A stretch of DNA of 64,000 nucleotides from Silanimonas sp. (GTDB lineage Bacteria > Pseudomonadota > Gammaproteobacteria > Xanthomonadales > Xanthomonadaceae): positions 1-64,000 of the forward strand of contig NZ_JAPZSC010000010.1 of NCBI RefSeq assembly GCF_027531545.1, in the 5' to 3' direction. A program made the position numbers and the translations under genes. Positions 11,441-62,690 of the stretch are shown here, in pieces. Within the stretch, counting starts at the first letter, position 1; each line of letters starts with the position of its first letter. The notes beneath the pieces were generated by a model, which did not search any database, had not been told where the DNA came from, and worked only from the letters and a program-made list of their open reading frames with translations.

Positions 11441-11444
11441 CCCT

Positions 11445-12286: not shown

Positions 12287-12294
12287 TCGGGTCC

Positions 12295-12514: not shown

Positions 12515-12566
12515 CGCGTTTCAGGCCTTCGAAAACTCCCCGAAGCCTCGAAGCCGCCATCGCCCC

Positions 12567-14222: not shown

Positions 14223-14297
14223 ACCGTTAGAAACCGTAGCGCCTCCCACTCGTTCCTCTCTCCTCGCTCTTCCACTCGCTTCCCAAAGGACACCGCC

Positions 14298-15347: not shown

Positions 15348-17035
15348 ACGGAGCCGAGTGGCTGGTGAAGGCGCTCGAGGCCGAAGGGGTCGACACCCTC
15401 TTCGGCTACCCGGGCGGCTGCATCATGCCCTTCTACGACGCCCTGCTCGGCAGCACGATGCACCATGTGCTGGTGCGCCATGAGCAGGCCGCCGCGCTGG
15501 CCGCGAACGGCTACGCGCGCCACAGCGGCCGCGTCGGCGTCTGCGTCGCCACTTCCGGCCCCGGTGCGTCGAACCTCGTCACCGGCATCGCCGACGCGCT
15601 GCTGGATTCGGTGCCGATGGTCTGCATCACCGGGCAGGTGCCGACGCACCTGATGGGCACCGACGCGTTCCAGGAGCTGGACGTGTTCGGCATGACCCTG
15701 CCGATCGTGAAGCACAGCTACCTGCCGCGTTCCGTCGATGAGTTGCCGGCGGTGCTGCACGAGGCCTTCCACCTGGCGCGCAGCGGTCGCCCCGGCCCGG
15801 TGCTGATCGACCTGCCGAAGGACGTACAGCTGGCGAAGGCCGACCACCTGCCGGCGCCCGCGCCGCTGATCAGCCCGCCGGTGGTGAATGCCGTGCCGGT
15901 GGGGCTGGTGGAGGCGCTGGCCCTGATCGCGCGCTCGAAGAAGCCGGTGGTCTACGGCGGCGGTGGCATCGCCATCGCCGATGCGACGAAGGCTTTCCGC
16001 CGCTTCATCGCGGCCACGAAGATGCCCACGGTGCTGACCCTGCGCGGCCTGGGCGCCCTGCCCTTCGACCACCCGCAGTTCCTCGGCATGCTGGGCATGC
16101 ACGGCTCGCGCGCCGCGAACCTGGCCGTGCAGGAGAGCGATTTGCTGATCGTCGTGGGCGCACGTTTCGACGACCGCGCCACCGGCAAGCTGGCCGAGTT
16201 CGCCCCGCACGCGAAGGTGATCCACCTCGACGCCGACCTGGGCGAGATCAACAAGCTGCGGCGCGCGGATGTCTCGGTGCATGGCCGCATCGACAACAGC
16301 CTGAACGCGCTGTGCGCCGCCATCAGCCGCTGCGACGACTGGCGCGCCCTGTGCGCCGAGCGGGCCCACAAGCACGCTGCCCGCTACGACGCGCCCGGCA
16401 CCGACATCTACGCCCCGGCCCTGCTGAAGCGGCTCTCGGAGCTGGCGCCGGACGCGATCGTCGCCTGCGACGTGGGCCAGCACCAGATGTGGGTGGCGCA
16501 GCACTGGGGCTTCAAGGACCCGACGCATCATCTGAGCAGCGCAGGCCTCGGCACGATGGGCTTCGGCCTGCCGGCGGCGATCGGCGCGCAGCTGTCGAAC
16601 CCCGGCGCCACCGTCGTGTGCGTCAGCGGCGACGGCAGCATCCAGATGAACATCCAGGAGCTGGCCACCGTCGCGCGCGAGCGCCTGCCGATCAAGATCG
16701 TGCTGCTCGACAACCAGGCCCTCGGCATGGTCCGGCAGTGGCAGGAGCTGTTCTTCCAGGAGCGCTATTCGGCGGTCGACCTGTCGGACAACCCCGATTT
16801 CGGGCTGATCGCGCAGGCCTACCGCATCCCGGCGATGCGCCTGGACGCCCGTGCCGACCAAGAAGCCACGCTCGCGGAATTCCTCGCCATCGAGGGCCCG
16901 GCCTTCCTGCATGTCGCCATCGACCAGAAGGCCAACGTGTGGCCGCTGGTGCCGCCCAACAAATCCAACACCGAGATGCTCGACGCCCCCGCGGCGGACG
17001 AGGCCAAGGAGTTCGTCCATGCACTACCAACTTGA
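15344..17035 (+). CDS. ilvG: Acetolactate synthase large subunit
   Basis: ThDP-, FAD- and Mg2+-dependent enzyme making acetolactate or acetohydroxybutyrate from pyruvate. The 563 residues show [15 protein letters not shown] near 20, the catalytic Glu in [31 protein letters not shown], and the ThDP motif [15 protein letters not shown] ending in the Asn of [14 protein letters not shown]. The start at 15344 overlaps the ilvC stop. A small ACT subunit follows immediately, so this is the ilvGM-type isozyme; the symbol (ilvG versus ilvB) is by context. Confidence 0.94.
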
Positions 17036-17255
17036 CGTCCAGCTGCGCCAGAGCGAAGGCGCGCTGGCCCGCGTGCTGGGCACCGCACAGCGCCGCGGCT
17101 ACTGGCCGCTGTCCATGCAGGCCGAGACCGACCCGCGCTCATCAGCGTGGACGCTGTCGATGAAGGTCGAGAGCGAGCGCTCGGCGCACGGCCTGAAGTC
17201 GCAGCTCGACAAGCTGCACGACTGCCTCGCGGTGGAGGTGGCGCCATGTCGCTGA
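17019..17255 (+). CDS. ilvM: Acetolactate synthase small regulatory subunit (IlvM-like)
   Basis: A 78-residue single ACT domain ([20 protein letters not shown] at the start, then a beta-rich half ending [12 protein letters not shown]). It would bind the large subunit and tune activity and feedback. It is about half the length of IlvH/IlvN proteins and matches IlvM. It overlaps the end of ilvG by 17 bases and the start of ilvE by 10, so translation is tightly coupled. Identification rests on size, ACT-like pattern and position. Confidence 0.85.
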
Positions 17256-18109
17256 TGCAGTTCTGCGACGGCGAGATCGCCGAGGCCGAAGCCTTCAGCG
17301 TTCCGCTGACCAGCCACGCGCTGCACTACGGCACGGGCGTCTTCGAGGGCATCCGCAGCTACGCCACCGACGACGGCGGTGCGGCGGTGTTCCGCCTTCC
17401 CGAGCATCTGGAGCGCATGCGCAAGGGCGCCGAGGCGCTCGGCATGAAGTTCGACGTCGCGCAGGCCACCGACGCCGTGCTGGCCACGCTGCGCGCCAAC
17501 GGCCACCGCGACGCCTACATCCGCCCGCTGCTGTGGTTCAACGCGGGCGGGCTGGGCCTCGACGTCGACAAGCTCAGCGAGCGCCTGATGGTCGCCACCC
17601 TGCCGTGGACCTCTCATCTGGGCACGCACCGCGTGCGCCTGACCGTCTCGCCCTTCCGCCGCAACCCGGCCAAGGCACTACCGCCGCTGAAGCTCTGCGG
17701 CAACTACGTGAACTCGATCCTGGCCAAGCGCGAAGCCACGCAGCGCGGCTTCGGCGAGGCGCTGTTCGTCGACGATGGCGGCTTCGTCGTGGAGTGCACC
17801 GGCGAGAACGTGTTCATGGTGAAGGACGGTCGCGTCACCGCCGTCGAGCACGGCGACGCCCTGCCCGGCATCACCCGCGACACCGTGATCCAGCTCACCG
17901 GCGCCGAATCGCGCCCGGTGCGGATCGAGGAACTGAAGGCCGCGGACGAAGTGTTCCTGACCGGCACCTCGGCCGAGATCGCGCGGGTCGAGGCCATCGA
18001 CGAGCGCGTGTTCGCCGCCTCGCCCTTCGGCGATGCGCTGTCCGCCCGCTATGCCGACATCGTCCGTGGCCGCAGTGAAGCAGCCCGTCACTGGCTGACG
18101 AGGGTCTGA
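17246..18109 (+). CDS. ilvE: Branched-chain amino acid aminotransferase
   Basis: PLP class IV aminotransferase making Val, Leu and Ile from their keto acids with glutamate. The 287 residues include SHALHYGTGVFEGIRSY near 26-42, IRPLLWFNAGGLGLD, the PLP lysine at about residue 149 in LKLCGNYVNSILAKREA, and VVECTGENVFMVKDG with the conserved Glu. A late LTGTSAEIARVEAIDERVF completes the fold. The start at 17246 overlaps ilvM and the stop overlaps the ilvA start as TGATG. Confidence 0.94.
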   Translation: MSLMQFCDGEIAEAEAFSVPLTSHALHYGTGVFEGIRSYATDDGGAAVFRLPEHLERMRKGAEALGMKFDVAQATDAVLATLRANGHRDAYIRPLLWFNAGGLGLDVDKLSERLMVATLPWTSHLGTHRVRLTVSPFRRNPAKALPPLKLCGNYVNSILAKREATQRGFGEALFVDDGGFVVECTGENVFMVKDGRVTAVEHGDALPGITRDTVIQLTGAESRPVRIEELKAADEVFLTGTSAEIARVEAIDERVFAASPFGDALSARYADIVRGRSEAARHWLTRV

Positions 18110-19247
18110 TGCCGCTGGACGCCGCCCGCGCCGACGTGACCGCCAGCGACGTGCTGGCGGCCAGCGCGCGCCTGCGGCGCTACCTGCCGCCGACGCCGCT
18201 GCATTACGCCGAGCGCTTCGGCTGCTGGCTGAAGCTGGAGAACCTGCAGCGGACCGGCGCCTACAAAGTGCGCGGCGCGTTGAACGCGCTGCTGGCGGCC
18301 CGCGAACGCGGCGACCGCCGCACGGTCATCACCGCCTCGGCCGGCAACCACGCGATGGGCCTCGCCTGGGCGGCGCGCGAGCTGAAGGTCCCGGTCATCA
18401 CGGTGATGCCAGTGACCGCGCCCGTCGTGAAGGCGCAGGGCGTGGCCTTCCTCGGTGCCACCGTGCGCCAGAACGGCCAGACCTACGACGAAGCCAAGGC
18501 CCACGCGCTGCAGCTGGCCGAGCAGCACGGCTTCCGTTACCTCTCCGCCTTCGATGATCCGGACGTCATCGCCGGCCAGGGCACGCTGGGCATCGAACTC
18601 ACCGCGCACGCGCCCGAAGCGGTGCTGGTGCCGATTGGCGGCGGCGGCCTTGCGGCCGGCGTGGCGCTGGCGCTGAAGTCTCAAGGGGTACGCATCATCG
18701 GCGCGCAGGTGGAGGGCGTGGATGCCATGGCCCGAGCCTTGAAGGGCGATGCCTCGCCGATCGCACCGAAAGCCACGCTCGCCGACGGCACGCGCGTCGC
18801 CGAAGCCGGAACGCTGACCCGCGAAATCCTCTCGCGCTTGCTGGACGACCTCATCATCGTCCGCGAGGCCGAGCTGCGCGAGACGCTGGCCCGGTTGATG
18901 CTGGAAGAACACATCGTCGCCGAAGGCGCCGGCGCGCTGGCGCTGGCCGCCGGACGTCGCGTGGCCAGCCGCCGCAAGGTGGCCGTTGTCTCCGGCGGCA
19001 ACATCGACGCGGCGGTGTTCGCGCAACTGCTTCTCGACACCCGGCCGCGCCCGCCGCGGCCACCTCGGCGCCGCGCCGCCGACCCGTTCACTGCCGAGGC
19101 GCCCGCCTCGCGCCCCGCCATTTCGCCGGTCGCACCGACGACCGGCACCGCTTTCGCCAACGCCACCCCTGGTCGTTCGGCGACGGCGGCGGTGCCCCTC
19201 CCCGGCATCGCCGCCACTTTCTCCAAGACCCCTGAAGGATCCCTGCC

Positions 19248-19251
<4 letters not shown>
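18109..19251 (+). CDS. ilvA: Threonine dehydratase, catalytic domain only
   Basis: PLP enzyme deaminating threonine to 2-oxobutyrate for isoleucine synthesis. The PLP lysine is in [11 protein letters not shown] near residue 57, [12 protein letters not shown] follows, and the glycine loop is [10 protein letters not shown]. The 380 residues contain a catalytic domain of about 315 residues and then a ~65-residue Pro/Ala/Arg-rich tail with no fold visible. The C-terminal ACT-like regulatory domains of biosynthetic IlvA (about 510 residues) are absent, so isoleucine feedback at this enzyme is doubtful. Operon position supports a biosynthetic rather than catabolic (TdcB) role. The stop overlaps leuA as ATGA. 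Confidence 0.9.
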
Positions 19252-20818
<1,567 letters not shown>

Positions 20819-50545: not shown

Positions 50546-51690
50546 GGCGCAACACTCCTGGAGAAGGCCGGTTCGGCCGAGGGGGTGGGGATCGGGTTCG
50601 CGTGATGGCGATCCGAGGTGAAGCGATAGAACAGCGGCTTCGCCGCGAAGCCGTGCTCGTCGACGACGTGGCGGAACAGGTGCGTGTCCAGCAGCTGCTG
50701 TCCCAGTGCCTGCGCACCGGCCGCGCTCAGGCCGTAGAAGCGCATCAGCCACGCATGCGCCTCGCTGCCGAGGAATACCGCCGGGTAGGCCTGCGCACGC
50801 CACAGGCGATCGCGCACGTCAAAACCGCCGTTCCGGCACTCCTTCGCCACCAGGTCGAGCTCGATCGCGTCGAGCTCGGGGTGCTCGGCGGTGAAGCGGT
50901 AGAACTTGCCCTCGTCGAGAAAGCCGTGGTCGAGCGCCACGTGCTCGAACGCGCCGTGCCGTCGCAGCAGTTCGCCCACGTCGACCGCCTGCGCGCGGCT
51001 GACGCCGAGCTGCGCGGCCAGCCAAGCCACGGCTTCGTCGCCGCGGAAGCACTGCGGGTAGGTCTTCAAGCGGTAGGTGCGGTCGGCGATGTCGACGCCG
51101 CCGCGCGATTGCATGTGGCGCGCCAGCGAGCGCGGCTCGATGCCCGACTGTTCGAGGTGACGCCAGATGGCGTGCACCGCCGCGCTGCCGCGCGCATCGA
51201 CGCGCGCATCGGCCCGGAATTCCGCGGGTGCCAGCGTGCGCAGCATGTCCTGCGCGCGTTCGACGTCGAGCACCTGAAGGCCACACGCGGTGAGCAGGGC
51301 CTGGATCGGCTCGAGGCCCGCGTGCAGGCGCTGCACCGAGATCGCTCCCATCAGGTCGTGGGCGCCGTGCTTCCGCGCCCACTGCCGCAGGCGGAAGCCG
51401 GGCTGGAGCTGGCCGGCGTCGGTGAGCAGCACCACCGCCGAAGGCAGGCGCGCACGCAGCGCGGTCGCGAAGGTTGGCCACCACAGGCCGTCCTCGGCCA
51501 GCCGCCCGAAATCGGCGATCAGCACCAGCCGGCCACGCAGGCCGGGGGCCAGCTGGTCGAGCTGCGTCAGCACCGAAGCGTCGCCGCGCAGGCGCCGCAC
51601 GCCGAACGGACCGGCGCGCAGCACGCTGCTGAGCACGTGCTCCTGCGCAGCGTCGCGCTGCGCGATGACGACGGTGGCGTCGATCGACAT
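50542..51690 (-). CDS. Tandem DEP-domain protein with receiver-like N terminus
   Basis: A 382-residue cytosolic protein. Residues ~1-130 resemble a degenerate receiver/Rossmann domain (ATVVIAQRDAAQ, LVLIADFG, AVVLLTDAG). Two DEP domains follow, at about 198-266 and 288-358, recognisable as parallel blocks (DIADRTYRLKTYPQCFRGDEAVAWL and DVRDRLWRAQAYPAVFLGSEAHAWL; each ends in KFYRF or LFYRF). DEP domains bind membranes or signalling partners and are rare in bacteria. Its start lies 3 bases after the DUF547 stop. Confidence 0.78.
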   Translation of the reverse strand: MSIDATVVIAQRDAAQEHVLSSVLRAGPFGVRRLRGDASVLTQLDQLAPGLRGRLVLIADFGRLAEDGLWWPTFATALRARLPSAVVLLTDAGQLQPGFRLRQWARKHGAHDLMGAISVQRLHAGLEPIQALLTACGLQVLDVERAQDMLRTLAPAEFRADARVDARGSAAVHAIWRHLEQSGIEPRSLARHMQSRGGVDIADRTYRLKTYPQCFRGDEAVAWLAAQLGVSRAQAVDVGELLRRHGAFEHVALDHGFLDEGKFYRFTAEHPELDAIELDLVAKECRNGGFDVRDRLWRAQAYPAVFLGSEAHAWLMRFYGLSAAGAQALGQQLLDTHLFRHVVDEHGFAAKPLFYRFTSDRHHANPIPTPSAEPAFSRSVAP

Positions 51691-51693
51691 GGG

Positions 51694-52530
51694 TCACTCC
51701 ACGCCGTTGAGGCGCCAGTCGTAGTCGGTGTAGTCGAGGTCGACATCGCCTTCGCGGAGCGCCTTCGCCACCCGCGCGTCGAGGCCGAGGTCGGCGACGT
51801 ACAGCACAAGGAAGGCCTCGACCGAATCAGCGCCGAGGAAGCCCTTCTCGAAGTCGCCGCTGTACCAGTCGAAGATCGACGAGACTTCGAGCACTTCGTC
51901 GTCGGCGTTCCAGCGGTTGCGGCTGCGGTCGCGCAGGAATCGCCGGGTCTGGTCCTGCAGCTGGGCCTCGAGCTTTGCGGCGGTGAACGCCTCGGGCCGC
52001 AGCGCCGGGCAGCCGATCGAGGCGCAGTTCACCGCGAAGTGGATGCGCGGCTCGTCGAAATCGGGCGCGCCGCGCAGCAGGCCGTGCTCGATGTCGTCGA
52101 GGCTGCGGGTCTGGCCCAGCAGTGGAAACGCCGCTTTTTTCCACGGCGACTGCAGCAGGCTGCCGAGGTCCTTGATCGACTCGAGGTCGGCCGGCGCGTC
52201 GGTAATCAGGGCCACGGTGTAGGCGTTGTAGGCGTTGATCAGGAAGGCGTAACGCTCGCGCTTGTTCCAGCGCGCATACGTGGCTTCCGGCACGCGGGCC
52301 AGCGACGCGGTGTAGCGCTGCAGCGCCGCGCGGTCGCGACGGAAGCCGGCGTAGTCGACCACCGTGCCCACGCCCGCCGGGCCCGCCGGCACCCAGCGCA
52401 CGTGCTTGGCAAGCAGGGCCGTCCACGGCGCGTGGTCGACGGTGGCGGCGGGTGTAACCGCGGGCTGCCCGAGTGCGAACGGGGCAAAGACGGCGGCAAC
52501 CACCGCCAGCAGGATCACACGCAAGGTCAT
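51694..52530 (-). CDS. DUF547 domain exported protein
   Basis: A 278-residue protein with a signal peptide (RVILLAVVAAVFAPFALG). The DUF547 domain shows VDYAGFRRDRAALQRY, FLINAYNAYTVALI, LDDIEHGLLR, IHFAVNCASIGCPALRPEAF and a late FDWYSGDFE. The NCASIGCP block carries two conserved Cys. DUF547 proteins are widespread, with no settled function. It is the first gene of a six-gene minus-strand array and divergent from an AraC regulator, with 77 bases between the starts. Confidence 0.85.
   Translation of the reverse strand: MTLRVILLAVVAAVFAPFALGQPAVTPAATVDHAPWTALLAKHVRWVPAGPAGVGTVVDYAGFRRDRAALQRYTASLARVPEATYARWNKRERYAFLINAYNAYTVALITDAPADLESIKDLGSLLQSPWKKAAFPLLGQTRSLDDIEHGLLRGAPDFDEPRIHFAVNCASIGCPALRPEAFTAAKLEAQLQDQTRRFLRDRSRNRWNADDEVLEVSSIFDWYSGDFEKGFLGADSVEAFLVLYVADLGLDARVAKALREGDVDLDYTDYDWRLNGVE
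52454..52479 (+). promoter_or_regulatory. Third GTAACC-N16-CGAA-type ECF promoter candidate
   Basis: GTAACC (52454-52459), 16 bases, CGAA (52476-52479) on the plus strand, about 130 bases before the AraC gene at 52608. It lies inside the start of the DUF547 gene on the other strand. The spacing is the same as at 34700 and 40045. Its location inside a coding sequence lowers confidence. Confidence 0.4.
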
Positions 52531-52607
52531 GGACGAGGCCTCGACGGACGAGGCGCTCAGGTTCCGCCCCTCGCCCCCCGTGAACGCACACCGGAAGTCC
52601 AGCACCC

Positions 52608-53495
52608 ATGTCCGAAAGTCCGCCGATCGACTTGCTCTCCGACCTGCTCGGGGCCTACCAGCTCTCCGCCAAGGTGTTCGCCCAACCGCTGGTCTGCGGC
52701 GGCTGGCGCATCGACACCAATGGCGTGGCCACCACGCAGTTCCACCTGCTGGTGCGCGGCACTTGCTTCCTCCAGATGGCCCACCTGCCGCGCCCGCTGC
52801 CGATGCGGCCCGGTGATCTGGTGATGGTGCCGAACGGCGACTGGCACATCCTCAGCGCCGACCCGCTGGCCGCGGCCGACGCGCATCCCGCCAGCGGCGC
52901 CAATGCCGCCCTGCTCTGCGGTGCGCTGTCGGTGCCCGAGGCCGGGCGCAAGGCGCTCTTCAGCCTGCTGCCGCCGGCGCTGATCGTGCGCGCCAGCGAA
53001 GCCAACGAGCGCTTCAGCCATCTGGTGCGGCTGATCGTCGACGAAGCCAACGCCGCCGAAGCCGGCTCGCGCCTGCTGCTCGACGGCCTGTCGAACGTGC
53101 TGGTGACGATGACCCTGCGCGAGCACTTCCGCCACGCCCCCGTCACCGAGACCCGCGGCGTGCTGGCCGCGGCGCACGACAAGCGCCTGGGTGCGCTGAT
53201 CTCGGCCCTCCATCGCGAGCCGGGGCGCGCATGGAGCGTTGAATCAATGCTCGAGCTCGCGCCGGTGTCGCGCAGCGCGCTGATGGAGCGATTCAGGCAG
53301 CTGGTAGGCGACAGCCCGATGGGCTACGTGATGCAACTGCGGATGATCCGCGCGCAGCAGCTGCTGGCCGACCCGGCCGTCGCGCGCACGGCCGTGCCTG
53401 GGCTGGTGGGCTACCGGAACGAAGCGGCCTTCCGCCGCGCGCTGCGACGCTTTGCCGACGGGTCGGACGCGACCGCCGTGGACGATCGGTGCTGA
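52608..53495 (+). CDS. AraC-family transcriptional regulator
   Basis: A 295-residue regulator. An N-terminal cupin-like domain (about 10-170; PLPMRPGDLVMVPNGDWHIL) is followed by the double HTH: WSVESMLELAPVSRSALMERFRQLVGDSPMGYVMQLRM, then a second unit with VARTAVPGLVGYRNEAAFRRALRRF. It lies directly upstream (106 bases) of the flavoprotein/arsenosugar-type gene run in the same direction and is a natural candidate regulator. Confidence 0.87.
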   Translation: MSESPPIDLLSDLLGAYQLSAKVFAQPLVCGGWRIDTNGVATTQFHLLVRGTCFLQMAHLPRPLPMRPGDLVMVPNGDWHILSADPLAAADAHPASGANAALLCGALSVPEAGRKALFSLLPPALIVRASEANERFSHLVRLIVDEANAAEAGSRLLLDGLSNVLVTMTLREHFRHAPVTETRGVLAAAHDKRLGALISALHREPGRAWSVESMLELAPVSRSALMERFRQLVGDSPMGYVMQLRMIRAQQLLADPAVARTAVPGLVGYRNEAAFRRALRRFADGSDATAVDDRC

Positions 53496-53601
53496 ATTGC
53501 GGACGGCGCGTGGTGCATGATCAGGGCCCTGATGCGGACAGTGACGACTGTGCGGGTCGCCGCGTGACGCTCGCCCGCCTCCCCTTTCGAAAGGCCCCTG
53601 C

Positions 53602-55755
53602 ATGACCGCGCCTGCCCACCGCCGCCCGCTGATCGCCCTCGCCGTCGTCGCCCTGATCGTCCTCGGCGTTTGGTGGAGTGGCGCGCACCAGTTCCTCACC
53701 CTCGATGCCCTGAAGACGCAGTCCGACGCGCTGGGCGCGGCGGTGGCCGCGAACCCGTGGCAGGCGGCGGGGCTGTTCTTTTTGGCCTACGTACTGGTGG
53801 CCGCGCTGTCGATCCCCGGTGCGGCAGTCATGACGCTGGCGTCCGGCGCACTGTTCGGGCTGATCGAAGGCACCGTGCTGGTGTCCTTCGCGAGTTCGAT
53901 CGGCGCGACGCTGGCCTTCCTCGTCGCGCGTTTCGGCTTCCGCGACGCGCTGCGGGCGCGCTTTGGCGAGCGGCTGCGCGACATCGACGCCGGCATCGCC
54001 CGCGACGGTGCCTTCTACCTGCTCACCCTGCGCCTCGTGCCGGCCTTCCCGTTCTTTTTGGTGAACCTGCTTTCGGGCCTCACCTCGCTGCCCACGCGCA
54101 CGTTCTACTGGGTGAGCCAACTCGGCATGCTTCCGGCGACCATCGTCTACGTGCTCGCGGGCACTCAGCTGGCCCAGATCCGCTCGCTCGGCGACGTCCT
54201 CTCGCCCGGCCTGCTGGGCGCACTGGTGGCGCTCGGTGCGCTGCCGCTGCTGCTGAAGGCGGTTCTGGGCTGGCTCAAAGCCCGCCGCGTCTACGCCGGC
54301 CACCGCAAGCCGAAATCCTTCGACTACAACCTGATCGCCATCGGCGCCGGTTCGGCCGGGCTCGTCACCACCTACATCGGTGCGGCGGTGAAGGCCAAGG
54401 TCGCGCTGATCGAAAAGCACAAGATGGGTGGAGACTGCCTCAACACCGGCTGCGTGCCATCGAAGGCGCTGATCCGCTCGGCGCGGCTGCTGGCCGAAGC
54501 GCGCGAGGCCGAGAAGTACGGGCTGAACTCGCTCACCGCCGACTTCGATTTCGCCAAGGTGATGGAGCGCGTGCAGCGCGTGGTTTCCAAGGTGGAACCG
54601 CACGATTCCGTCGAACGCTACACCGGCTTGGGCGTGGACGTGATCGAAGGCGAGGCCAAGCTCGTCAGCCCGTGGGAAGTGGAAGTCAACGGCCGACGCA
54701 TCAGCGCCCGCAGCATCGTCATCGCCACGGGCGCACGGCCGCTGGTGCCGAAACTCCTCGGCCTCGACGGCATCGAGGCGCTGACCAGCGACAGCGTCTG
54801 GTCCTTGCACGAACTGCCGAAGCGCCTGCTGGTGCTGGGCGGTGGGCCGATCGGCTGCGAGCTGGCGCAAAGCTTCGCCCGCTTTGGGGCGGCGGTGAGC
54901 GTGGTCGAGATGGCGCCGACCTTGCTGCCGCGCGAGGACGCCGAGGTCGGCGCGCTGTTGGCCGAGCGCCTCGCGCACGAGGGCCTTCACGTCGCCACCG
55001 GCCACAAAGCCCTGCGCATCGAGCCCGCGGCCGACGGCAAGGGCGGCGTGCTGGTGGCCGAAGCCGACGGTGCCGAAGTGCGCCTCGCCTTCGACCGCCT
55101 GCTGTTGGCCCTGGGCCGCGCGCCGAACACGCAGGGCTTCGGCCTGCAAGACCTCGGCGTGGAACTCGGCCCCCGCGGCCACGTCGCCGTCGATGGCCTG
55201 ATGCGCACCAATTTCCCGAACATTCTCGTGGCCGGCGACGTCGCCGGGCCCTACCAGTTCACCCACATGGCGGCGCACCAGGCCTGGTACGCCGCGGTCA
55301 ATGGCCTGCTCGCGCCGTTCTGGTCGTTCAAGGTCGACTACCGCGTGGCGCCCTGGGTCACGTTTACCGACCCGGAAGTGGCGCGCGTCGGACTGTCGGA
55401 AGATGAGGCGAAGGCGCAGGGCATCGCCGTCGAGGTGACGCGCTACGGCATCGACGATCTCGACCGCGCCATCGCCGACAGCCACGACGAGGGCTTCGTC
55501 AAGGTGCTCACGCCGCCCGGCAGCGACCGCATCCTCGGCGCCTGCATCGTTGGCGCGCATGCCGGCGAACTGCTGCCGGAGTTCGTGCTGGCGATGAAGC
55601 ACGGCCTCGGCTTGAACAAGCTGCTTGGCACCATCCACGCCTACCCGACGATGAACGAGGCCAACAAGTACGCCGCCGGCGTGTGGAAGCGGGCGAATGC
55701 CCCGCAGGGCGCGCTGCGCTGGGCCGAGCGCTTCTTCGCGTGGCGACGCGGCTGA
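53602..55755 (+). CDS. VTT (DedA/TVP38)-pyridine nucleotide-disulfide oxidoreductase fusion
   Basis: A 717-residue two-part protein. Residues ~1-225 form a TVP38/VTT membrane domain (LFFLAYVLVAALSIPGAAVMTLASGALFG, then FPFFLVNLLSGLTSLP). Residues ~235-717 form a flavin disulfide reductase like mercuric or lipoamide reductase: IAIGAGSAGLVTTY, the redox pair in GGDCLNTGCVPSKAL, LGGGPIGCELAQ, and NILVAGDVAGPYQFTHMA. The C-terminal HAYPTMNEANKYAAG has the active-site His region. It would be tethered to the inner membrane. It heads the run of arsenic-related genes; its disulfide substrate is unknown. Confidence 0.9.
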   Translation: MTAPAHRRPLIALAVVALIVLGVWWSGAHQFLTLDALKTQSDALGAAVAANPWQAAGLFFLAYVLVAALSIPGAAVMTLASGALFGLIEGTVLVSFASSIGATLAFLVARFGFRDALRARFGERLRDIDAGIARDGAFYLLTLRLVPAFPFFLVNLLSGLTSLPTRTFYWVSQLGMLPATIVYVLAGTQLAQIRSLGDVLSPGLLGALVALGALPLLLKAVLGWLKARRVYAGHRKPKSFDYNLIAIGAGSAGLVTTYIGAAVKAKVALIEKHKMGGDCLNTGCVPSKALIRSARLLAEAREAEKYGLNSLTADFDFAKVMERVQRVVSKVEPHDSVERYTGLGVDVIEGEAKLVSPWEVEVNGRRISARSIVIATGARPLVPKLLGLDGIEALTSDSVWSLHELPKRLLVLGGGPIGCELAQSFARFGAAVSVVEMAPTLLPREDAEVGALLAERLAHEGLHVATGHKALRIEPAADGKGGVLVAEADGAEVRLAFDRLLLALGRAPNTQGFGLQDLGVELGPRGHVAVDGLMRTNFPNILVAGDVAGPYQFTHMAAHQAWYAAVNGLLAPFWSFKVDYRVAPWVTFTDPEVARVGLSEDEAKAQGIAVEVTRYGIDDLDRAIADSHDEGFVKVLTPPGSDRILGACIVGAHAGELLPEFVLAMKHGLGLNKLLGTIHAYPTMNEANKYAAGVWKRANAPQGALRWAERFFAWRRG

Positions 55756-55782
55756 TCCCTCACGGCAACGACCTAGACTTGC

Positions 55783-56799
55783 ATGACCCTGACGATCCTG
55801 CTTCTTCTCACGACCCTCGCGCTCGCCGCCATCAATGGCGCCAACGACAACAGCAAGGGCGCTGCAACACTCATCGGGTCGGGGCTGATGTCCACGCGGG
55901 GCGCCATCTGGATGGCCACCCTCGCGACGGCGGCCGGCGGGCTGGCCTCGATCCTCCTCGCGCAGGGCCTGCTCGCTGCTTTCAGCGGGAAAGGCATTGT
56001 GCCGGATTCGCTTACCGTGTCTGTCCCCTTCCTGATCGCGGTGGCCGGCGCGGCCACGGCGACAGTCGGCCTCGCCACGATGGCGAGCCTGCCCATCTCC
56101 ACGACCCATGCCCTGTTCGGCGGCCTGTTCGGCGCGGGGCTCGTCCACGACGCGGGCGGTGTCCAGTTCGCGAAGGCCGCGGCGATCATCGTCGTTCCGC
56201 TTCTGCTCTCGCCCTTGATGGCCGCCGTTCTCGCCCTCGTCGTCGCCCCCCTGCTTCGCCGTACGGCCCATGCACCCGCTGCATCGCGCGTCGACCGAAG
56301 CGATGGCCCCATCGAATCGCTGGCGACTCCCCCGCTGCGCTCCTTGCGCGGCATTGACCTGTTGCACGTTCTCAGTGCCGCCGTCGTGGGCTTCGCCCGG
56401 GGCCTGAACGACACACCGAAAATCGCCGCTTTGCTCGTCGCCGCGGGCTTGGGCGGCGTCGCCGGCGCTTCGAGCAGTGTCGTCATCGCGATGGCCATCG
56501 GCGGCTGGTTGGGCGCGCATCGGGTCGCGAAAACGCTGGCCTGGCGCGTCACCGCGATGGATCCGCGCGAGGGCCTTGCCGGGAACCTGGTGACCTCGAC
56601 CTTGGTGATCGCCGCTTCGCGCTTTGGCCTTCCGGTTTCGACGACGCATGTCAGCACCGGCGCCCTCTTCGGCATCGGGCTGTCGAACGGAAAAGCGAAC
56701 TTCCGCATCATCGCGATGATTCTCCTTGCGTGGGGGGTAACCTTGCCCACATCGGCCATGATCGCCGCGCTCCTTCACTTCCTCCTTCCCTCCGTTTGA
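55783..56799 (+). CDS. Inorganic phosphate transporter (PiT family)
   Basis: A 338-residue inner-membrane H+-coupled phosphate transporter. Both signature repeats are visible: INGANDNSKGAATLIGSG near 20-37 and FARGLNDTPKIAALLVAAG near 204-222, with STTHALFG and STTHVSTGALFG loops. PiT carriers also admit arsenate. Within an arsenic gene run it may move phosphate, or an arsenical; only the family is certain. 27 bases after the oxidoreductase stop. Confidence 0.9.
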   Translation: MTLTILLLLTTLALAAINGANDNSKGAATLIGSGLMSTRGAIWMATLATAAGGLASILLAQGLLAAFSGKGIVPDSLTVSVPFLIAVAGAATATVGLATMASLPISTTHALFGGLFGAGLVHDAGGVQFAKAAAIIVVPLLLSPLMAAVLALVVAPLLRRTAHAPAASRVDRSDGPIESLATPPLRSLRGIDLLHVLSAAVVGFARGLNDTPKIAALLVAAGLGGVAGASSSVVIAMAIGGWLGAHRVAKTLAWRVTAMDPREGLAGNLVTSTLVIAASRFGLPVSTTHVSTGALFGIGLSNGKANFRIIAMILLAWGVTLPTSAMIAALLHFLLPSV

Positions 56800-56809
56800 C
56801 CGGGACACC

Positions 56810-57862
56810 ATGAACACGATGTCCGAACCTGCCCACGCCGACGTCCGCACGTATTACGGCGAGGTGCTGCAATCGAGCGCCGACCTCAAGACCGGCGCCT
56901 GCTGCCCCGCCGAGGCCATGCCTCTCGCCCTGCGCCGGATGCTTGGCGACATCCACCCCGAAATCCTCGCGCGCTTCTACGGCTGCGGCTCGCCGCTGCC
57001 GCCGGCGCTCGAGGGCCGCACCGTGCTCGACCTCGGCTGCGGCACCGGGCGTGATGCCTACCTGCTCTCGCGCCTCGTCGGCCCGACGGGACGCGTCGTC
57101 GGCGTCGACATGACGCCGGAACAGCTCGCTGTGGCTAACCGCCATCGCGATTGGCACGCCGAGCGCTACGGCTTTGCGGCGAGCAACGTCGATTTCCATG
57201 AAGGCCTGATCGAAGACCTCGGTGCCATCGGCATCGCCGACGCCAGCATCGACGTGGTGGTGTCGAACTGCGTGCTGAACCTCGCGCCCGACAAGGCGCG
57301 TGTGTTCGCCGAAATCTTCCGCGTGCTCAAGCCCGGGGGCGAGCTGTACTTCTCCGACGTGTTCGCCGACCGCCGCATCCCGGAGGCGCTGCGACGCGAC
57401 CCCGTGCTGTTGGGCGAGTGCCTCGGCGGCGCCCTGTACACCGAGGACTTCCGCCGCCTGATGCAGCAGGTGGGCTGCGCCGACGCCCGCACCGTCAGCC
57501 GCGCGCCGATCCCTCTGCTCGACCCGGCCATCGAGGCCGCCATCGGCTTCGTGAATTTCGAATCGATCACGGTGCGGGCGTTCAAGCTCGCGCTGGAAGA
57601 CCGTTGCGAGGACTTCGGCCAGGTCGCGACGTATCGCGGCACGATGCCCGATGCGCCGCACGCCTTCGTGCTCGACGACCACCACACCTTCGAGACCGGC
57701 CGTCCGCTGCGCGTCTGCGGTAACACCTTCGACATGCTGGCGGCCACGCGCTTCGCGCCGCACTTCGAATTGAGTGGCAACAAGGACCGCCACTTCGGCC
57801 TCTTCGACTGCGCCCCGGCCTCGCCCACCGCCGCGCCGAAGGCTGCCGGCGCCTGCTGCTGA
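56810..57862 (+). CDS. arsM: Arsenite S-adenosylmethionine methyltransferase
   Basis: A 350-residue SAM methyltransferase that methylates As(III) to mono-, di- and trimethyl species. The SAM motif is VLDLGCGTGRDAYLLS near 72-87. Arsenic-binding Cys of the family are seen: the pair in KTGACCPAEA (residues 31-32), Cys in VVSNCVLNLAP near 149, and Cys in LLGECLGGALY near 203. A C-terminal GACC pair is typical. The start at 56810 is used; 56819 is also possible. 10 bases after the PiT gene. Confidence 0.92.
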   Translation: MNTMSEPAHADVRTYYGEVLQSSADLKTGACCPAEAMPLALRRMLGDIHPEILARFYGCGSPLPPALEGRTVLDLGCGTGRDAYLLSRLVGPTGRVVGVDMTPEQLAVANRHRDWHAERYGFAASNVDFHEGLIEDLGAIGIADASIDVVVSNCVLNLAPDKARVFAEIFRVLKPGGELYFSDVFADRRIPEALRRDPVLLGECLGGALYTEDFRRLMQQVGCADARTVSRAPIPLLDPAIEAAIGFVNFESITVRAFKLALEDRCEDFGQVATYRGTMPDAPHAFVLDDHHTFETGRPLRVCGNTFDMLAATRFAPHFELSGNKDRHFGLFDCAPASPTAAPKAAGACC

Positions 57863-57873
57863 CGTCTCCGCCC

Positions 57874-58548
57874 GTGGAGGCTCCCGTGCTCAGCATCGTC
57901 ATCCCGGCCGGCCCCGGCGACCGCGACTGGGCGGCGTTGCTGGACGACCTGCCGTTGGGCGACGACATCGAGCGCGTGCTGGTGCTGGCCGAAGGTGACG
58001 CGCTCCGGGGCACTCCGCCGAGTACGCGCGCGCTCACCGCTCCGACCGGCCGGGCGCGGCAGATCAATGCCGGGCTGGCGGCGGCCCACGGCGCGACGGT
58101 GTGGGTGCTGCATGCCGATTCCCGCGTCGATGCGGAAACGCTCGCCGCCGCACGGCAGGCCGCGGCGGGCTTCGCGCGCGGCGACGCCCCAGCGCTGTGC
58201 TGGTTCGACCTCGCATTCCACAACGGCCCGGCGGCGATGGCGATCAACGCCTTCGGCGCCAACCTCCGCAGCCGCTGGTTCGGCATGCCGTTCGGCGACC
58301 AAGGCTTCCTGGCACCGCGAACCGTGTTCGAATCACTCGGCGGTTTCGATCCGTCGGTCGGCCGCGGTGAAGACCATGCCTTCGTCCATGCCGCGCGTCG
58401 CGCCGGTCTGCCGCTGCGACGCCTGCGCGGCCGGGTGGCAACCAGCGCACGGCGCTACGTCGATCACGGCTGGTGGCGGACGACGCGCGAGCACCTCGTG
58501 CTGACCTGGCGGCAACGTCGCGCCTTCGCGCGCGGGGCCACGGCATGA
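57874..58548 (+). CDS. Small GT2-like glycosyltransferase (TIGR04283 family)
   Basis: A 224-residue GT-A protein: LSIVIPAGPGDRDW at the start, TGRARQINAGLAAAHGATVWVLHADSRV near 51-75 and FGMPFGDQGFLAPRTVFESLGGF near 130-152. This is the short TIGR04283-type enzyme that accompanies ArsM/ArsS clusters. It probably transfers a sugar onto an organoarsenical or a related acceptor. The stop overlaps the next start as ATGA (58545-58548). Confidence 0.85.
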   Translation: MEAPVLSIVIPAGPGDRDWAALLDDLPLGDDIERVLVLAEGDALRGTPPSTRALTAPTGRARQINAGLAAAHGATVWVLHADSRVDAETLAAARQAAAGFARGDAPALCWFDLAFHNGPAAMAINAFGANLRSRWFGMPFGDQGFLAPRTVFESLGGFDPSVGRGEDHAFVHAARRAGLPLRRLRGRVATSARRYVDHGWWRTTREHLVLTWRQRRAFARGATA

Positions 58549-59249
58549 GCCCCGGTCTCGCGCTGTTCGTGAAGACACCGGGCCGCTCGCCGGTGAAGTC
58601 GCGGCTCTGGCCGGCCATCGGTCGCGAGGCGGCGGAAGCGCTCTACCTCGACTGCGCCACCGCCGTTGGCGAGACCGCGATCGCCCTGCAGCGCGACGGA
58701 CGGCTCCACGCCTACTGGGCGGTGGCCGAAGCCGAGCGCGATGGGGACGCCGACGTTTCCAACGCACTCCACCCGTGGCAGGCCCTCCCGGTGGTCGCGC
58801 AGGGCGACGGTGGGCTCGGTGAGCGCATGGCCCATGTCTACGCCACGCTGCGCGCTCGCCATGGCGCCGCGCTGCTGATCGGTACCGACTTGCCGCAGCT
58901 GTCGTTACCGGCCCTGTCCGATGCCGTGGATGCCCTCGTCCACGCCAAGGCCGATCTCGTGCTCGGGCCGAGCGAGGACGGCGGCTTCTGGCTGGTGGGT
59001 GGTCGCGTCGATCTGCCGCTCGCCGCATGGACGGCGCCGCGCTACAGCACGCCCGACGCGCGCAGCGACTTCCTCGCCGCGCTCCCGCAGGGCCTGCGCG
59101 TCCACCGGCTCGACACCGCGCACGATCTCGATGAACCCGAGGACCTCGCCGCCGTCGCCGCGGCGCTGGCCGCCCTCCCGCGTCGCACCGAAGCGCAGGA
59201 ACGCGTGTCGCGCCGCCTCGACGCCCTGCTGGCCACGATGGCGCGATGA
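58545..59249 (+). CDS. Arsenosugar-cluster nucleotidyl/glycosyltransferase (TIGR04282 family)
   Basis: A 234-residue protein: LALFVKTPGRSPVKSRLWPAIG near 6-27 is the nucleotide-binding opening, with LLIGTDLPQLSLPALSDA near 108-125, DLVLGPSEDGGFWLVGGR near 137-154 and the C-terminal HDLDEPEDL. It matches the TIGR04282 family often found beside ArsS. It overlaps its neighbours by 4 bases on both sides. The exact substrate is not known from sequence. Confidence 0.87.
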   Translation: MSPGLALFVKTPGRSPVKSRLWPAIGREAAEALYLDCATAVGETAIALQRDGRLHAYWAVAEAERDGDADVSNALHPWQALPVVAQGDGGLGERMAHVYATLRARHGAALLIGTDLPQLSLPALSDAVDALVHAKADLVLGPSEDGGFWLVGGRVDLPLAAWTAPRYSTPDARSDFLAALPQGLRVHRLDTAHDLDEPEDLAAVAAALAALPRRTEAQERVSRRLDALLATMAR

Positions 59250-60061
59250 ACGCCGACCTGCTCCGCCTCGCCGCCGTGCTCGGCCTGCTGGCCCTGCTGC
59301 TGGCGCTGCAGTGGCGCTTCGGCTTCCGCCACGACATGCGTGGCCGCACGATGTTCGACAACCTGGTCGTCGCCGTGACGGGCAGCGGGCTGCTGCGCCT
59401 GCTGGTGCCGGTCGGCACGGTCGGCGCCGCGCTGTGGGCACAATCGCAGGGGCTGGGCTTGTTCCCAGCGATCGGCCTCGACGGCATCGGCGCGATCGCT
59501 GCGACCGTCGTGCTGATGGACCTCGCGATCTGGGCACAGCATGTCGCCTCGCACCGCTGGCCCTGGCTGTGGCGCCTGCACCGCGTGCACCACGTGGCCA
59601 CGCGCTTCGAGGCCACGCTGGGCCTGCGTTTCCATCCCCTCGAAATCCTCGTCTCGCTGGGCTGGAAGCTGCTGCTGGTCGTGGCCCTCGGCCTTCCCGC
59701 TGCCGGCATCGCGCTGTACGAGACCCTGCTTGCGCTGGCCGCGCTGTGGACGCACGCCGACCTCGCCCTGCCGCCGCGCCTCGAACGCGCCGTCAGCGCG
59801 GTGCTGGTCACGCCCACGTGGCACCGCGTGCACCACTCGCCCGAGCGCGCCTGTACCGACAGCCACTACGGCAACCTGCTCGCTGTTTGGGACCGGCTCT
59901 TCCGCACCCGCCCGGCGATGCCGCCCAGCGACCAACGCGCCATGGCCATCGGCCTCAAGGGCTGGCGCAACGACGCCGACCAACGCTGGACCGCCCTGCT
60001 GCTGAACCCTTTCCGGCGCGCTCAGCGCCCCGCCCCCACCGAGACCACCCCGCATGCGTGA
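59246..60061 (+). CDS. Sterol desaturase / fatty acid hydroxylase superfamily protein
   Basis: A 271-residue membrane di-iron protein. The His boxes are visible: WAQHVASHRWPWLWRLHRVHH near 93-113 (HxxxH...HxxHH), a middle TH near 169 in LWTHADLALP, and WHRVHHSPERACTDSHYGN near 190-210. Around four to five membrane helices. These enzymes hydroxylate or desaturate lipids using O2. It is set inside the arsenosugar-type run with 4- to 8-base overlaps. Its presence could mean a lipid-linked arsenical; that is an inference. Confidence 0.87.
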   Translation: MNADLLRLAAVLGLLALLLALQWRFGFRHDMRGRTMFDNLVVAVTGSGLLRLLVPVGTVGAALWAQSQGLGLFPAIGLDGIGAIAATVVLMDLAIWAQHVASHRWPWLWRLHRVHHVATRFEATLGLRFHPLEILVSLGWKLLLVVALGLPAAGIALYETLLALAALWTHADLALPPRLERAVSAVLVTPTWHRVHHSPERACTDSHYGNLLAVWDRLFRTRPAMPPSDQRAMAIGLKGWRNDADQRWTALLLNPFRRAQRPAPTETTPHA

Positions 60062-61010
60062 CACCTGGCCCCTGCTGAAGGACATCCCGTTCCCGGCCCT
60101 CACCCGCGGCGCGTTCACAACGCTGCAGCTCAACCTCGGCTACCGCTGCAACCTGAGCTGCGTGCACTGCCACGTGGCCGCCGGCCCGCGTCGCACCGAA
60201 ACGATGTCGAAGGCGACGATGGCCACCGCGCTCGCCGTCGCCGAGCGCTTCGGTGTGACCACGCTCGACCTCACCGGCGGCTCGCCCGAAATGAACCCCG
60301 AGTTCCGCTGGCTGGTCACCGAAGCCCGCGCGCGCGGGCTGCACGTGATGGACCGGCTGAACCCCACGATCATGGAAGAGCCGGGCTACGACTGGGTCGG
60401 CCCCTTCCTCGCCGAGCACCGCGTCGAGGCCGTGGCCTCCCTGCCCTGCTACAGCCAGGCCAACGTCGACGAACAGCGCGGCGACGGCGTGTTCGAAGCC
60501 TCCATCCGCGCCCTGCAGTCGCTCAACGCGCTGGGCTACGGCCAACCCGGCAGCGGCCTGATGCTCAACCTCGTCTACAACCCGAACGGCGCCTTCCTGC
60601 CGCCGCAGCAGGAAAAACTCGAGGCCGACTACAAGCGCCTGCTCCGCGACAACTTCGGCATCGTGTTCAACCACCTGTACGCGTTGGCCAACATGCCGAT
60701 CCAGCGCTTCGGCTCGTGGCTGCAGTCGAAGGGCCAGTTCGAGGCCTACATGGGCACGCTCCGCGCCGCGCACCGCGACGACAACCTCGGAGCGGTGATG
60801 TGCCGTTCGCTCGTCAGCGTCGATTACAACGGCGAGCTGTTCGACTGCGACTTCAACCAGATGCTGAAGATGCCGCTAGGCGGCGGCAGCGCCCCGCGCC
60901 ACCTCGATGAACTGCTGGCCGGGACCCTGCCCGAGCGCATCGCCGTCGCCGGGCACTGCTACGGCTGCACCGCCGGGCAGGGCTCGAGCTGCGGCGGCGC
61001 GCTGGCCTGA
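60054..61010 (+). CDS. arsS: Radical SAM arsenosugar biosynthesis protein ArsS
   Basis: A 318-residue radical SAM enzyme. The cluster motif CxxxCxxC is at Cys32, 36 and 39 (CNLSCVHC), followed by DLTGGSPEMNPEFRWLV and LVYNPNGAFLPPQQEKLE. A Cys-rich C terminus (GHCYGCTAGQGSSCGGAL) is typical of ArsS, which adds a 5'-deoxyadenosyl group to dimethylarsenite, giving the arsenosugar skeleton. All positions read as Cys, with no in-frame UGA here (some homologues are selenoproteins). It is the last gene of the run. Confidence 0.92.
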   Translation: MRDTWPLLKDIPFPALTRGAFTTLQLNLGYRCNLSCVHCHVAAGPRRTETMSKATMATALAVAERFGVTTLDLTGGSPEMNPEFRWLVTEARARGLHVMDRLNPTIMEEPGYDWVGPFLAEHRVEAVASLPCYSQANVDEQRGDGVFEASIRALQSLNALGYGQPGSGLMLNLVYNPNGAFLPPQQEKLEADYKRLLRDNFGIVFNHLYALANMPIQRFGSWLQSKGQFEAYMGTLRAAHRDDNLGAVMCRSLVSVDYNGELFDCDFNQMLKMPLGGGSAPRHLDELLAGTLPERIAVAGHCYGCTAGQGSSCGGALA

Positions 61011-61107
61011 GGTCGTTCACCGGAAGGCTACGGGTCGGTCGGCGAGGACAGTGAAGAAATCCGCCGCTCGCGTGTAGAAGGGAAGACATCCCCACGCGAG
61101 CACACCC

Positions 61108-61806
61108 GTGTCCTACCCTGTTCCCGCACCCCGCTGCGCCAGCGCTCTCCTCGCCCTCGCACTGTCCGCCACGCTGCTGGCCGGCTGCCAGCCGGCCGCC
61201 GAGGCGCCAACACTGAGTACGCATGCCGTGCCGCCGGCGCGCGCGCAGGCGATCGTCGAGGCCATCAACAAGACGCTGATGCAGGGCGACGCGCCCCCGC
61301 TCGGCCGCGCCGAAGTGGCTGCACCCGGCACCCTCGTGGTGCGCGCGCCGTCCGGGATGCAGGCCTCGATCGCCTCGACCATCTCAGCGCTGCAGGGCGT
61401 CGAGGCTGCCGAGCCTGTGCAAGTGCAGGTCGAGGCGTGGTGGATCGGCAAGACCCCGGAGGCCGCTCCGTTGCCCGCCGAGCTCGCCGACGTGGCCAAG
61501 GCTCTGGGCGGCAATGCGAGCACCCTGCGCGTCCGCGACCATGTCCGACTCGGCGTCGCGGCCAGCGGGCGGTTGGCCAACGCGAACGGCGACGCGATGC
61601 TGATGAGCGTTCGAGCGGCGCCGGAGGGAGACACCTTCGTGCTTGGGCTGCGGATTGCCCAAGCGCGTGCGGATGTCGCACGCGTCGGAGGACCGCTGCA
61701 CTACGACGGCGAGGTGCGCGTGGTCCCCGGCGAATTCACCGTGCTGACCTCGCGACCGGACGGCAGCGACGGCAGCGAATCGCTCGTGCTTCGACTCACC
61801 AACTGA
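61108..61806 (+). CDS. Putative lipoprotein of unknown function
   Basis: A 232-residue protein from a GTG start. Signal sequence ALLALALSATLLAGC ends in a clear lipobox (LAGC, Cys27). The rest is soluble, with an ISTISALQGVEAAEPVQVQVEAWW region and beta-rich C terminus (VRVVPGEFTVLTSRP) that recalls secretin-like N-domain folds but not clearly. No promoter or operon link is obvious to the arsS gene. The following sigma factor gene begins 7 bases after its stop, so they may be one unit. Confidence 0.7.
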   Translation: MSYPVPAPRCASALLALALSATLLAGCQPAAEAPTLSTHAVPPARAQAIVEAINKTLMQGDAPPLGRAEVAAPGTLVVRAPSGMQASIASTISALQGVEAAEPVQVQVEAWWIGKTPEAAPLPAELADVAKALGGNASTLRVRDHVRLGVAASGRLANANGDAMLMSVRAAPEGDTFVLGLRIAQARADVARVGGPLHYDGEVRVVPGEFTVLTSRPDGSDGSESLVLRLTN

Positions 61807-61813
61807 GCCTCGG

Positions 61814-62326
61814 ATGGCGCTCGATGATGCGCAGCTTGCCGCCTGCTACCGGCGTCTGGAACGGCCGCTGTACAACACGCTGTACCGGCTGCTTTGGGAT
61901 CCGCAGGCCTGCATGGACGTGATGCACGACGCCTGTCTCGCGGTGTGGGCGAAGCGCGCAACGGTCGATGCGGCGCGCGTCGATGCGCTGGTCACCGCGG
62001 CGGCGCTGAATCTGGCGCGCAACGAGCGACGCTGGCAGTCGCTGCGGCACTGGCTGCCGTGGCGCGACGAATCCTTACCGGAACCGCTCGGCGAGGACAG
62101 CGCTCTGTCGAAAGCCGAAGCCACCGAACTGCGTGCCGCCCTCGCCGCCCTGCCCGAGCGCGAGCGCGAAGTGCTGGTGCTGGCCGAGTTCATGGGCCTT
62201 TCCACCGCGGAGATCGCAGAAGCGCTGGGTATCCCGCCCGGCACGGTCGGCTCGCGTCGCCACCATGCCGTGAAGAAGCTGGCGCAGCGCTACGCACCTG
62301 CCATCGGAGCCGCCCGAGATGCATGA
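61814..62326 (+). CDS. ECF RNA polymerase sigma factor
   Basis: A 170-residue sigma factor. Region 2: [30 protein letters not shown] near 20-50. Region 4: [48 protein letters not shown] near 112-160. The sequence between them is short. The stop overlaps the next start as 62319-62326 (8 bases), so the small membrane protein is translationally coupled and could be its regulator. Target genes are unknown. Confidence 0.88.
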
Positions 62327-62690
62327 CTCGCCGACGCCCCTGCCCGCGCTACGATCGACGCTTCGCCGCAGTCTCGTTCCGCCGCCCGGCGGCAGCGCGC
62401 GGCTGGCCCAAGCCCTCGCCGCGGCAACGAACGGACCACGCGCTTCTCGCCTCCGTCCTGCTCTGGCGGCCGCCGCAGCGCTCGCGATGGTCGCGGTCAC
62501 GACCCTGCCGCTGCGCACCGCCGTCGAGCGCCACGAAGCCCGGCAGCAGATGGAGGTGCGCCTCGTCGCCGCCGTCGCCGAGGCCGGCCGCCTCGGCCCC
62601 GAGGTCCGCATCCACGGCGCAAGCGTGCAGCGGCTGCCCAGCAGGGTGCCGGGCGTCCGGGTCTACCGCGTCGAGCCGCAAAGTCCCTGA
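62319..62690 (+). CDS. Small membrane protein, possible anti-sigma partner
   Basis: A 123-residue protein with a short N-terminal part (about 45 residues), one transmembrane segment ([17 protein letters not shown], near 48-64) and a basic periplasmic tail ending in VYRVEPQSP. No zinc-binding HxxxCxxC anti-sigma motif. The position after a sigma factor with an overlap suggests an anti-sigma or accessory role; this is from context only. Confidence 0.6.

Follow-up and report, generated by a model that had tools for sequence, protein, structure and literature searches.

Why should a membrane hydroxylase be encoded within a gene run that looks built for arsenosugar synthesis? The question is raised by a stretch of 64,000 nucleotides from Silanimonas sp. 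(positions 1 to 64,000 of contig NZ_JAPZSC010000010.1; "the window" below means this whole stretch), where seven genes follow each other tightly on the + strand at positions 53602-61010. In this order they encode MerA-VTT, a PiT transporter, an ArsM-like methyltransferase, a TIGR04283-like and a TIGR04282-like transferase (together the GT-like genes), a PF04116 hydroxylase for which we use the name FAH, and the radical SAM enzyme ArsS. The initial annotation of the window had described an arsenosugar-type cluster with an embedded lipid-oxidising enzyme, and had taken the presence of this enzyme to suggest a lipid-linked or further hydroxylated organoarsenical. All seven genes are indeed there, in one direction, and the arsenosugar-type character of the locus is borne out by an ArsS that scores over its curated cut-off and carries the CX3CX2C motif, in the company of an ArsM-like gene and both GT-like genes.

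Judged by its sequence, FAH is a putative membrane di-iron monooxygenase that is often tied to arsenosugar synthesis. We tentatively read the run as an arsenosugar-type operon in which FAH would be a conserved non-core partner that acts, together with the VTT-MerA protein and both GT-like enzymes, on a lipid or a lipid-linked product, a reading that falls a little short of an even chance in our judgement. Its parts are unequally firm. A functional coupling of FAH to the arsenosugar/GT module is very probable, and a lipid is its slightly favoured substrate, while it is possible but rather doubtful that this substrate carries arsenic.

Co-occurrence of FAH with ArsS

The association is tight among 247 genomes of the window's bacterial family. 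ArsS (E 1e-60) was found in 27 of these and a FAH relative (E 1e-20) in 33, which places FAH in 27/27 genomes with ArsS against 6/220 without; the ArsS of one genome (G438) is broken, and one of the six ArsS-free genomes (G402) contributes a weak outlier that lies beside a paralogue in the tree. Among the listed genomes of the window's own genus, three have both genes and five have neither. FAH occupies the same stretch as ArsS in 25 of the 31 ArsS loci of the family, and in these 25, the window included, the match ends lie within 62 bases of each other in 20 loci and 1.4-3.7 kb apart in five. The gene order varies: FAH ahead of ArsS inside the run is the commonest arrangement, FAH comes first in L028, and in L044-L046 it stands at the far end in opposite orientation, together with a more distant ArsS (~52% identical). 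The search for the gene set in other genomes, which the initial annotation had proposed, recovered the MerA-VTT/GT/GT/FAH/ArsS run in other Lysobacteraceae. Within 6 kb of FAH in 33 Lysobacteraceae loci there is a TIGR04282-like gene in 31, a TIGR04283-like gene in 28, ArsS in 24 and a VTT protein in 22, so that the link of FAH to the GT-like genes is no looser than its link to ArsS. Loci L009-L011 were treated as belonging to G536, G451 and G459 by matching coordinates or identity.

The six ArsS loci of the family without FAH are L017, L041 and L048-L051. In L041 (G375) the contig starts just upstream, and L049, L050 and L051 lie at contig ends. In L048 (G438:C1:221000-240500) ArsS, ArsM and PiT are each in pieces, which may reflect decay or an assembly error, and the FAH of this genome lies elsewhere (L020).

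The coupling extends well beyond the family. For class and phylum, presence was called at E 1e-60 for ArsS and E 1e-40 for FAH. Among 369 genomes of the class, ArsS occurs in 183 and FAH in 179 (both in 148, FAH only in 31, ArsS only in 35, neither in 155). Reduced to one genome per family, 157 families gave 71 with both, nine with FAH only, 13 with ArsS only and 64 with neither. The odds ratio between FAH and ArsS was 38 (p 9e-20) in 149 genomes, one per family. PF00487, another membrane di-iron family, served as the one negative control and gave an odds ratio of 1.3 (p 0.48) against ArsS on the same genomes, at a lower prevalence (50/151); TIGR04283 above its cut-off, included as a genuine partner in the pathway, reached 192. 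In the phylum sample of 214 genomes, where many matches come from the single family f197, 74 had both genes, 22 ArsS only, 25 FAH only and 93 neither, with an odds ratio of 12.5. The families in these samples are not fully independent.

Proximity was counted among 150 FAH places and 151 ArsS places listed for the class, with the window's own ArsS place added. A listed ArsS lies within 15 kb of 36 of the 150 FAH places, in 26 families. In 111 of the listed FAH places the genome also has a listed ArsS; among these, the 36 compare with about one expected by position, chance linkage being taken as 1% (30 kb in about 3 Mb). In the FAH tree the label "ArsS-linked" changes 15 times, at least 11 of them on well-supported branches, and the linkage must therefore have been gained or lost many times. 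Chance cannot account for coupling of this strength and closeness, and we take FAH to be a functional partner of the arsenosugar/GT module; its company with ArsS across many families makes it probably a working partner of the arsenosugar system. The claim that the lipid-oxidising enzyme truly belongs to the locus thus holds, in the family as well as across the 26 families of the class and in the genome-wide tracking of ArsS. A gene that tracks ArsS and is often its close neighbour offers a definite candidate for a membrane-bound step further on.

FAH as a putative lipid hydroxylase

FAH displays the histidine boxes HX3H, HX2HH and HX2HH, and H99, H103, H112, H115, H116, H130, H170, H193, H196 and H197 are invariant in 20 FAH relatives. 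By analogy with the PF04116 family, these histidines may form a di-iron site. Known members of this superfamily use lipophilic substrates. The label "sterol desaturase" given to FAH at the outset is right as to PF04116 membership and is otherwise merely the name of that family. A protein from a Silanimonas metagenome-assembled genome is 90% identical to it. Comparison with the Silanimonas relative in L010 gave 0.053 nonsynonymous (dN) and 0.252 synonymous (dS) substitutions per site, values that fit purifying selection, and the GC content of the gene (0.721) lies inside the range of its neighbours (0.677-0.733).

In the alignment of the 20 relatives (A2), 17 rows come from loci where the stretch also holds ArsS, and its profile is biased to that kind. 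The genome of the window has five PF04116 matches, and among the candidates scored only FAH passes profile A2 at E 1e-40; of its four paralogues, two score 91.5 and 97.4 bits, one about 0, and for one no score was reported. The sole NCBIfam match of all 20 rows is OlsE (NF052566), an ornithine lipid hydroxylase, and the matched part of the window protein, residues 84-258, includes the histidine boxes. Unlike OlsE, however, the window FAH reaches only 61.3 bits against a cut-off of 475, and no ornithine-lipid gene was recognised in the window run; an identity as OlsE was rejected on that score. A sequence search of the PDB with FAH returned a chance-level match alone (E 0.95). No recoding is proposed for the in-frame TGA or TAG codons reported within some FAH matches, which, where inspected, run past an ordinary stop close to the C-terminus.

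What FAH might do in the pathway can be sketched as follows. In the families concerned, ArsM is established to yield dimethylated arsenic and ArsS to add a 5′-deoxyadenosyl group. The base would then be lost and the GT-like enzymes might build a glycoside; this product or its aglycone would be joined to a membrane lipid, FAH would hydroxylate that lipid or its headgroup, and the VTT protein could shift the lipid between leaflets. VTT proteins are thought to move lipids. Membership in a family of lipid hydroxylases, the VTT partner and a CDP-alcohol transferase near FAH genes that lack ArsS together point to a lipid or lipid-linked substrate. The last of these was seen in Idiomarina and Pseudidiomarina, where FAH adjoins a CDP-alcohol phosphatidyltransferase, ABC-transporter-like genes and MerA-VTT on stretches with no ArsS; of the Idiomarinaceae loci L013 and L014, the transferase of L014 was confirmed by Pfam, and the permease of L014 had no Pfam match.

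Known systems offer partial parallels. The arsenosugar pathway of Synechocystis sp. PCC 6803 consists of ArsM and ArsS (Xue et al. 2019, Cheng et al. 2021, cited in PMC8552651 and PMC12159101), and in the excerpts of the latter two papers these are the sole synthesis steps named and no hydroxylase is mentioned. The window shares with it an ArsS that passes the TIGR04167 cut-off and bears CX3CX2C, accompanied in the run by an ArsM-like gene, but also encodes the VTT-MerA protein, PiT, a pair of GT-like enzymes and a membrane hydroxylase of the di-iron type. Arsenosugar phospholipids are natural products, according to PMC7345539; a lipid-linked arsenosugar, like those of algae and cyanobacteria, is the product class that we tentatively propose for the window run, where, however, no gene for lipid attachment was identified. 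The arsinothricin cluster arsQML, as presented in the excerpt of PMC8552651, likewise joins an ArsM, a radical SAM enzyme forming a C-As bond and a membrane protein, but ArsL differs from ArsS, ArsQ is a transporter, and no hydroxylase or GT-like gene is named there. In open-licence full-text literature we found no paper joining a sterol desaturase with arsenosugar biosynthesis, arsenic resistance, arsM or a mer operon, which does not imply its absence from print.

FAH outside arsenosugar loci and the competing explanations

Several observations weigh against a lipid-acting partner role for FAH in arsenosugar synthesis. The window run holds no CDP-alcohol or acyl transferase, and thus no gene to account for lipid attachment. 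Over the 19 kb read, the genome's second ArsS cluster (L017) has no FAH, nor do 35 of the 183 ArsS genomes of the class at the threshold used, which agrees with the view that the hydroxylase stands outside the basic pathway, and 75 of the 111 listed FAH places in ArsS genomes are not within 15 kb of ArsS. Among 20 class loci (L073-L092) that were picked because they are linked to ArsS, and whose neighbour counts are not prevalences, 17 have a VTT protein within 6 kb of FAH, but just 5/20 unlinked class picks and 3/20 phylum picks do. A Foldseek search with an AlphaFold2 model of FAH (alignment A1, seven rows) gave no match at E 0.001, the model itself being too weak (pLDDT 62.8) for any conclusion to be taken from the fold. 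MerA-VTT, both GT-like genes and FAH also stand in a row in five genomes (G372, G422, G449 and G475, all of one genus, and G415) that have no ArsM-like match at E 1e-12 with one query and no ArsS over the cut-off.

Plasmids add to this side of the balance. FAH matched 37 plasmid records, and the ten inspected all carry the same subfamily according to profile A2 (nine at 318-345 bits and one fragment at 274); six of them share 60-64% identity with the FAH from L080, an ArsS-linked locus. No ArsS match was found in any of the ten stretches. Instead, Sulfitobacter dubius, Limimaricola and Thioclava have FAH adjacent to ArsR/SmtB regulators. It forms part of a VTT/CDF/DUF411 run on two Phaeobacter plasmids and in Dinoroseobacter, and of a CDF/DUF411 run in Sulfitobacter mediterraneus. 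In Loktanella its neighbour is a multicopper oxidase, and in the mer region of a Methylophaga plasmid it follows merB at a distance of several genes. The presence of the subfamily in such loci and in the runs free of ArsM and ArsS means that its substrate need not contain arsenic and suggests that FAH can serve without it. The step from the presence of FAH to a lipid-linked or hydroxylated organoarsenical, as it was originally made, is for the same reasons unsupported.

A few features of these loci may be added. In four of the five genomes without ArsM and ArsS, FAH is succeeded by ABC-transporter-like genes on the opposite strand, and Pfam confirmed the solute-binding protein in L033. On the Methylophaga thalassica plasmid (L135, 5875-6678) FAH is downstream of merP, merF, merA, merB and merE, with a Tn3 transposase right after it. 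On an unannotated stretch of a Sinorhizobium sp. K101 plasmid (L143, 4839-9772), a match resembling CDP-alcohol phosphatidyltransferase (46% over 193 residues) lies 3.6 kb from FAH, in likeness to the arrangement of L013 and L014. In L121, from a genome with no ArsS match (G780), FAH, an unmatched open reading frame of 181 aa, MerA-VTT, DUF547 and a TonB-dependent receptor lie in one direction at 9455-19470, along with ABC solute-binding and permease-like genes; this is possibly an uptake version of the module.

Two readings fit the data best, FAH as a tailoring enzyme for a lipid-linked arsenosugar and FAH as a lipid hydroxylase of metal stress that was drawn into such loci. In the second, FAH would be a general membrane-lipid hydroxylase of metal, metalloid and sulfur stress, in many cases controlled by ArsR/SmtB-type (rhodanese-fused) regulators and accompanied by VTT proteins; it would stand in arsenosugar loci through shared regulation and never touch an arsenical. 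We regard this as plausible if rather doubtful. The plasmid genes speak for it, both in their surroundings and in their closeness to the ArsS-linked FAH of L080, and so do the runs free of ArsM and ArsS. An ArsR-rhodanese relative is found within 6 kb of FAH in 12/20 linked class picks, 4/20 unlinked class picks and 4/20 phylum picks; together with the VTT counts, the low numbers in the unlinked picks indicate that many FAH genes have no recognised partner nearby. In L080, L081 and L086 this regulator is divergent to FAH, which is followed by VTT and later by ArsS and two GT-like genes. However, metal stress alone fails to predict the distribution of 27/27 against 6/220 in the family, the odds ratio of 38 across families, or the overlaps of FAH with ArsS and a GT-like gene in the window. 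Were it nonetheless correct, FAH would represent a poorly described hydroxylase tied to metal regulons.

Two of these ArsR-family regulators, divergent to FAH at L057:4121-6705 and L063:10553-11218, match Pfam HTH_5 and Rhodanese, and the VTT protein of L057 matches VTT and Rhodanese. By their sequence, these fusions hint at sulfur or persulfide chemistry.

The tailoring reading can also be put in a wider form, in which the widespread FAH subfamily would be an unrecognised arsenosugar tailoring partner in Pseudomonadota, making a hydroxylated lipid-linked arsenosugar with VTT and GT proteins from a lipid module older than the use of arsenic. We consider this wider form unlikely as a whole. If it were true, the same lipid module in relatives without ArsM and ArsS would make arsenosugar lipids the arsenic version of an older lipid pathway, and such runs provide a route to asking whether the sugar-lipid machinery predates arsenic use.

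FAH might alternatively oxidise a small organoarsenical directly at the membrane face, for example a side-chain carbon of an arsenosugar or trivalent arsenic. The short distance between FAH and ArsS (at most 62 bases in 20 of the 25 FAH-bearing ArsS loci of the family) and the one plasmid FAH in a region with the organometal gene merB would be in keeping with this, but the lipophilic substrates of the known superfamily members and the clusters without ArsM and ArsS, which require a different substrate, render it improbable. Finally, coincidence or hitchhiking through shared ecology, given how common both genes are among aerobic Pseudomonadota, could draw on the incomplete independence of the families and the single, less prevalent control, but is very improbable and was rejected in view of the family, class and phylum counts, the flat PF00487 control, the 36 linked places against about one expected and the all-or-none pattern of the listed genomes of the genus.

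Anatomy of the window run

The coordinates of the run and its upstream neighbours are collected in the table. Of the gene names first assigned, ArsS holds over its curated NCBIfam cut-off and FAH over the Pfam gathering score; ArsM, TIGR04283 and TIGR04282 score under their curated cut-offs and are named by similarity, TIGR04283 and TIGR04282 being the best or sole NCBIfam families for the two GT-like genes.

Features of the run at 53602-61010 and of the genes upstream of it, with the profile matches on which their names rest
Feature	Position	Strand	Matches and remarks
DUF547 protein gene	51694..52605	-	PF04784, 96.6 bits; upstream of the run, oriented away
AraC-type regulator with Cupin_6 domain	52608..53495	+	PF12852, PF12833; 106 bases upstream of the run
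MerA-VTT, VTT domain fused to a MerA/lipoamide-dehydrogenase-like disulfide oxidoreductase	53602..55755	+	PF09335, PF07992, PF02852
PiT-family (PHO4) transporter	55783..56799	+	PF01384, 168.3 bits
ArsM-like arsenite methyltransferase	56810..57862	+	best NCBIfam NF008823, 183.5 bits, under cut-off 263
TIGR04283-like glycosyltransferase	57874..58548	+	146.9 bits, under cut-off 182
TIGR04282-like (DUF2064, CofC-like) transferase	58545..59249, ATG at 58545	+	127 bits, under cut-off 134; PF09837
FAH, membrane di-iron hydroxylase-like, 271 aa	59246..60061	+	PF04116, 89.4 bits, over cut-off 31
ArsS, radical SAM enzyme of arsenosugar synthesis	60054..61010	+	TIGR04167, 434.1 bits, over cut-off 300

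The spacing of 4 to 27 bases originally given for the run is accurate for the first three junctions, with gaps of 27, 10 and 11 bases. The last three are in fact overlaps, of 4 bases between the GT-like genes, 4 between the TIGR04282-like gene and FAH and 8 between FAH and ArsS (junctions read), and these overlaps make translational coupling of the last four genes probable. A promoter scan of 51500-62400 found none, and the three terminator-like sites in the same interval, two of them within MerA-VTT, are fewer than in shuffles. Automatic clustering of neighbouring open reading frames was swamped by the spurious ones of GC-rich DNA and was left unused.

In MerA-VTT the VTT_dom match reaches 81.6 bits and Pyr_redox_2 197.7 bits, and the redox motif reads GGDCLNTGC; with 370.8 bits against 454.45, the protein stays below the cut-off of the mercuric reductase family TIGR02053. 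The ArsM-like protein reaches 111.3 bits with NF038099 (AsSugarArsM), under the cut-off of 400, and in its own genome (G000) the gene matches itself alone at E 1e-12. Besides CX3CX2C at residue 32, ArsS bears SCGG near its C-terminus. Some ArsS-family relatives contain selenocysteine, presumably at the SCGG position.

The AraC-type gene is a possible regulator of the run by its sequence and place, and an AraC relative also lies near the ArsS-free MerA-VTT/GT/GT/FAH runs L033-L037. DUF547 recurs in loci of this kind, within the run in L018, L019 and L031 and also in the second ArsS cluster of the genome. The latter (L017, G000:C14:4290-23613) comprises ArsS at 9956-10912 with MerA-VTT, DUF547, TIGR04283 and TIGR04282, and neither FAH nor ArsM was found on that stretch. 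In the ArsS region of the Burkholderia glumae plasmid p79s4p (L133), TIGR04283 adjoins an annotated S-methyl-5′-thioadenosine phosphorylase, which is a candidate for the missing adenine-removal step after ArsS.

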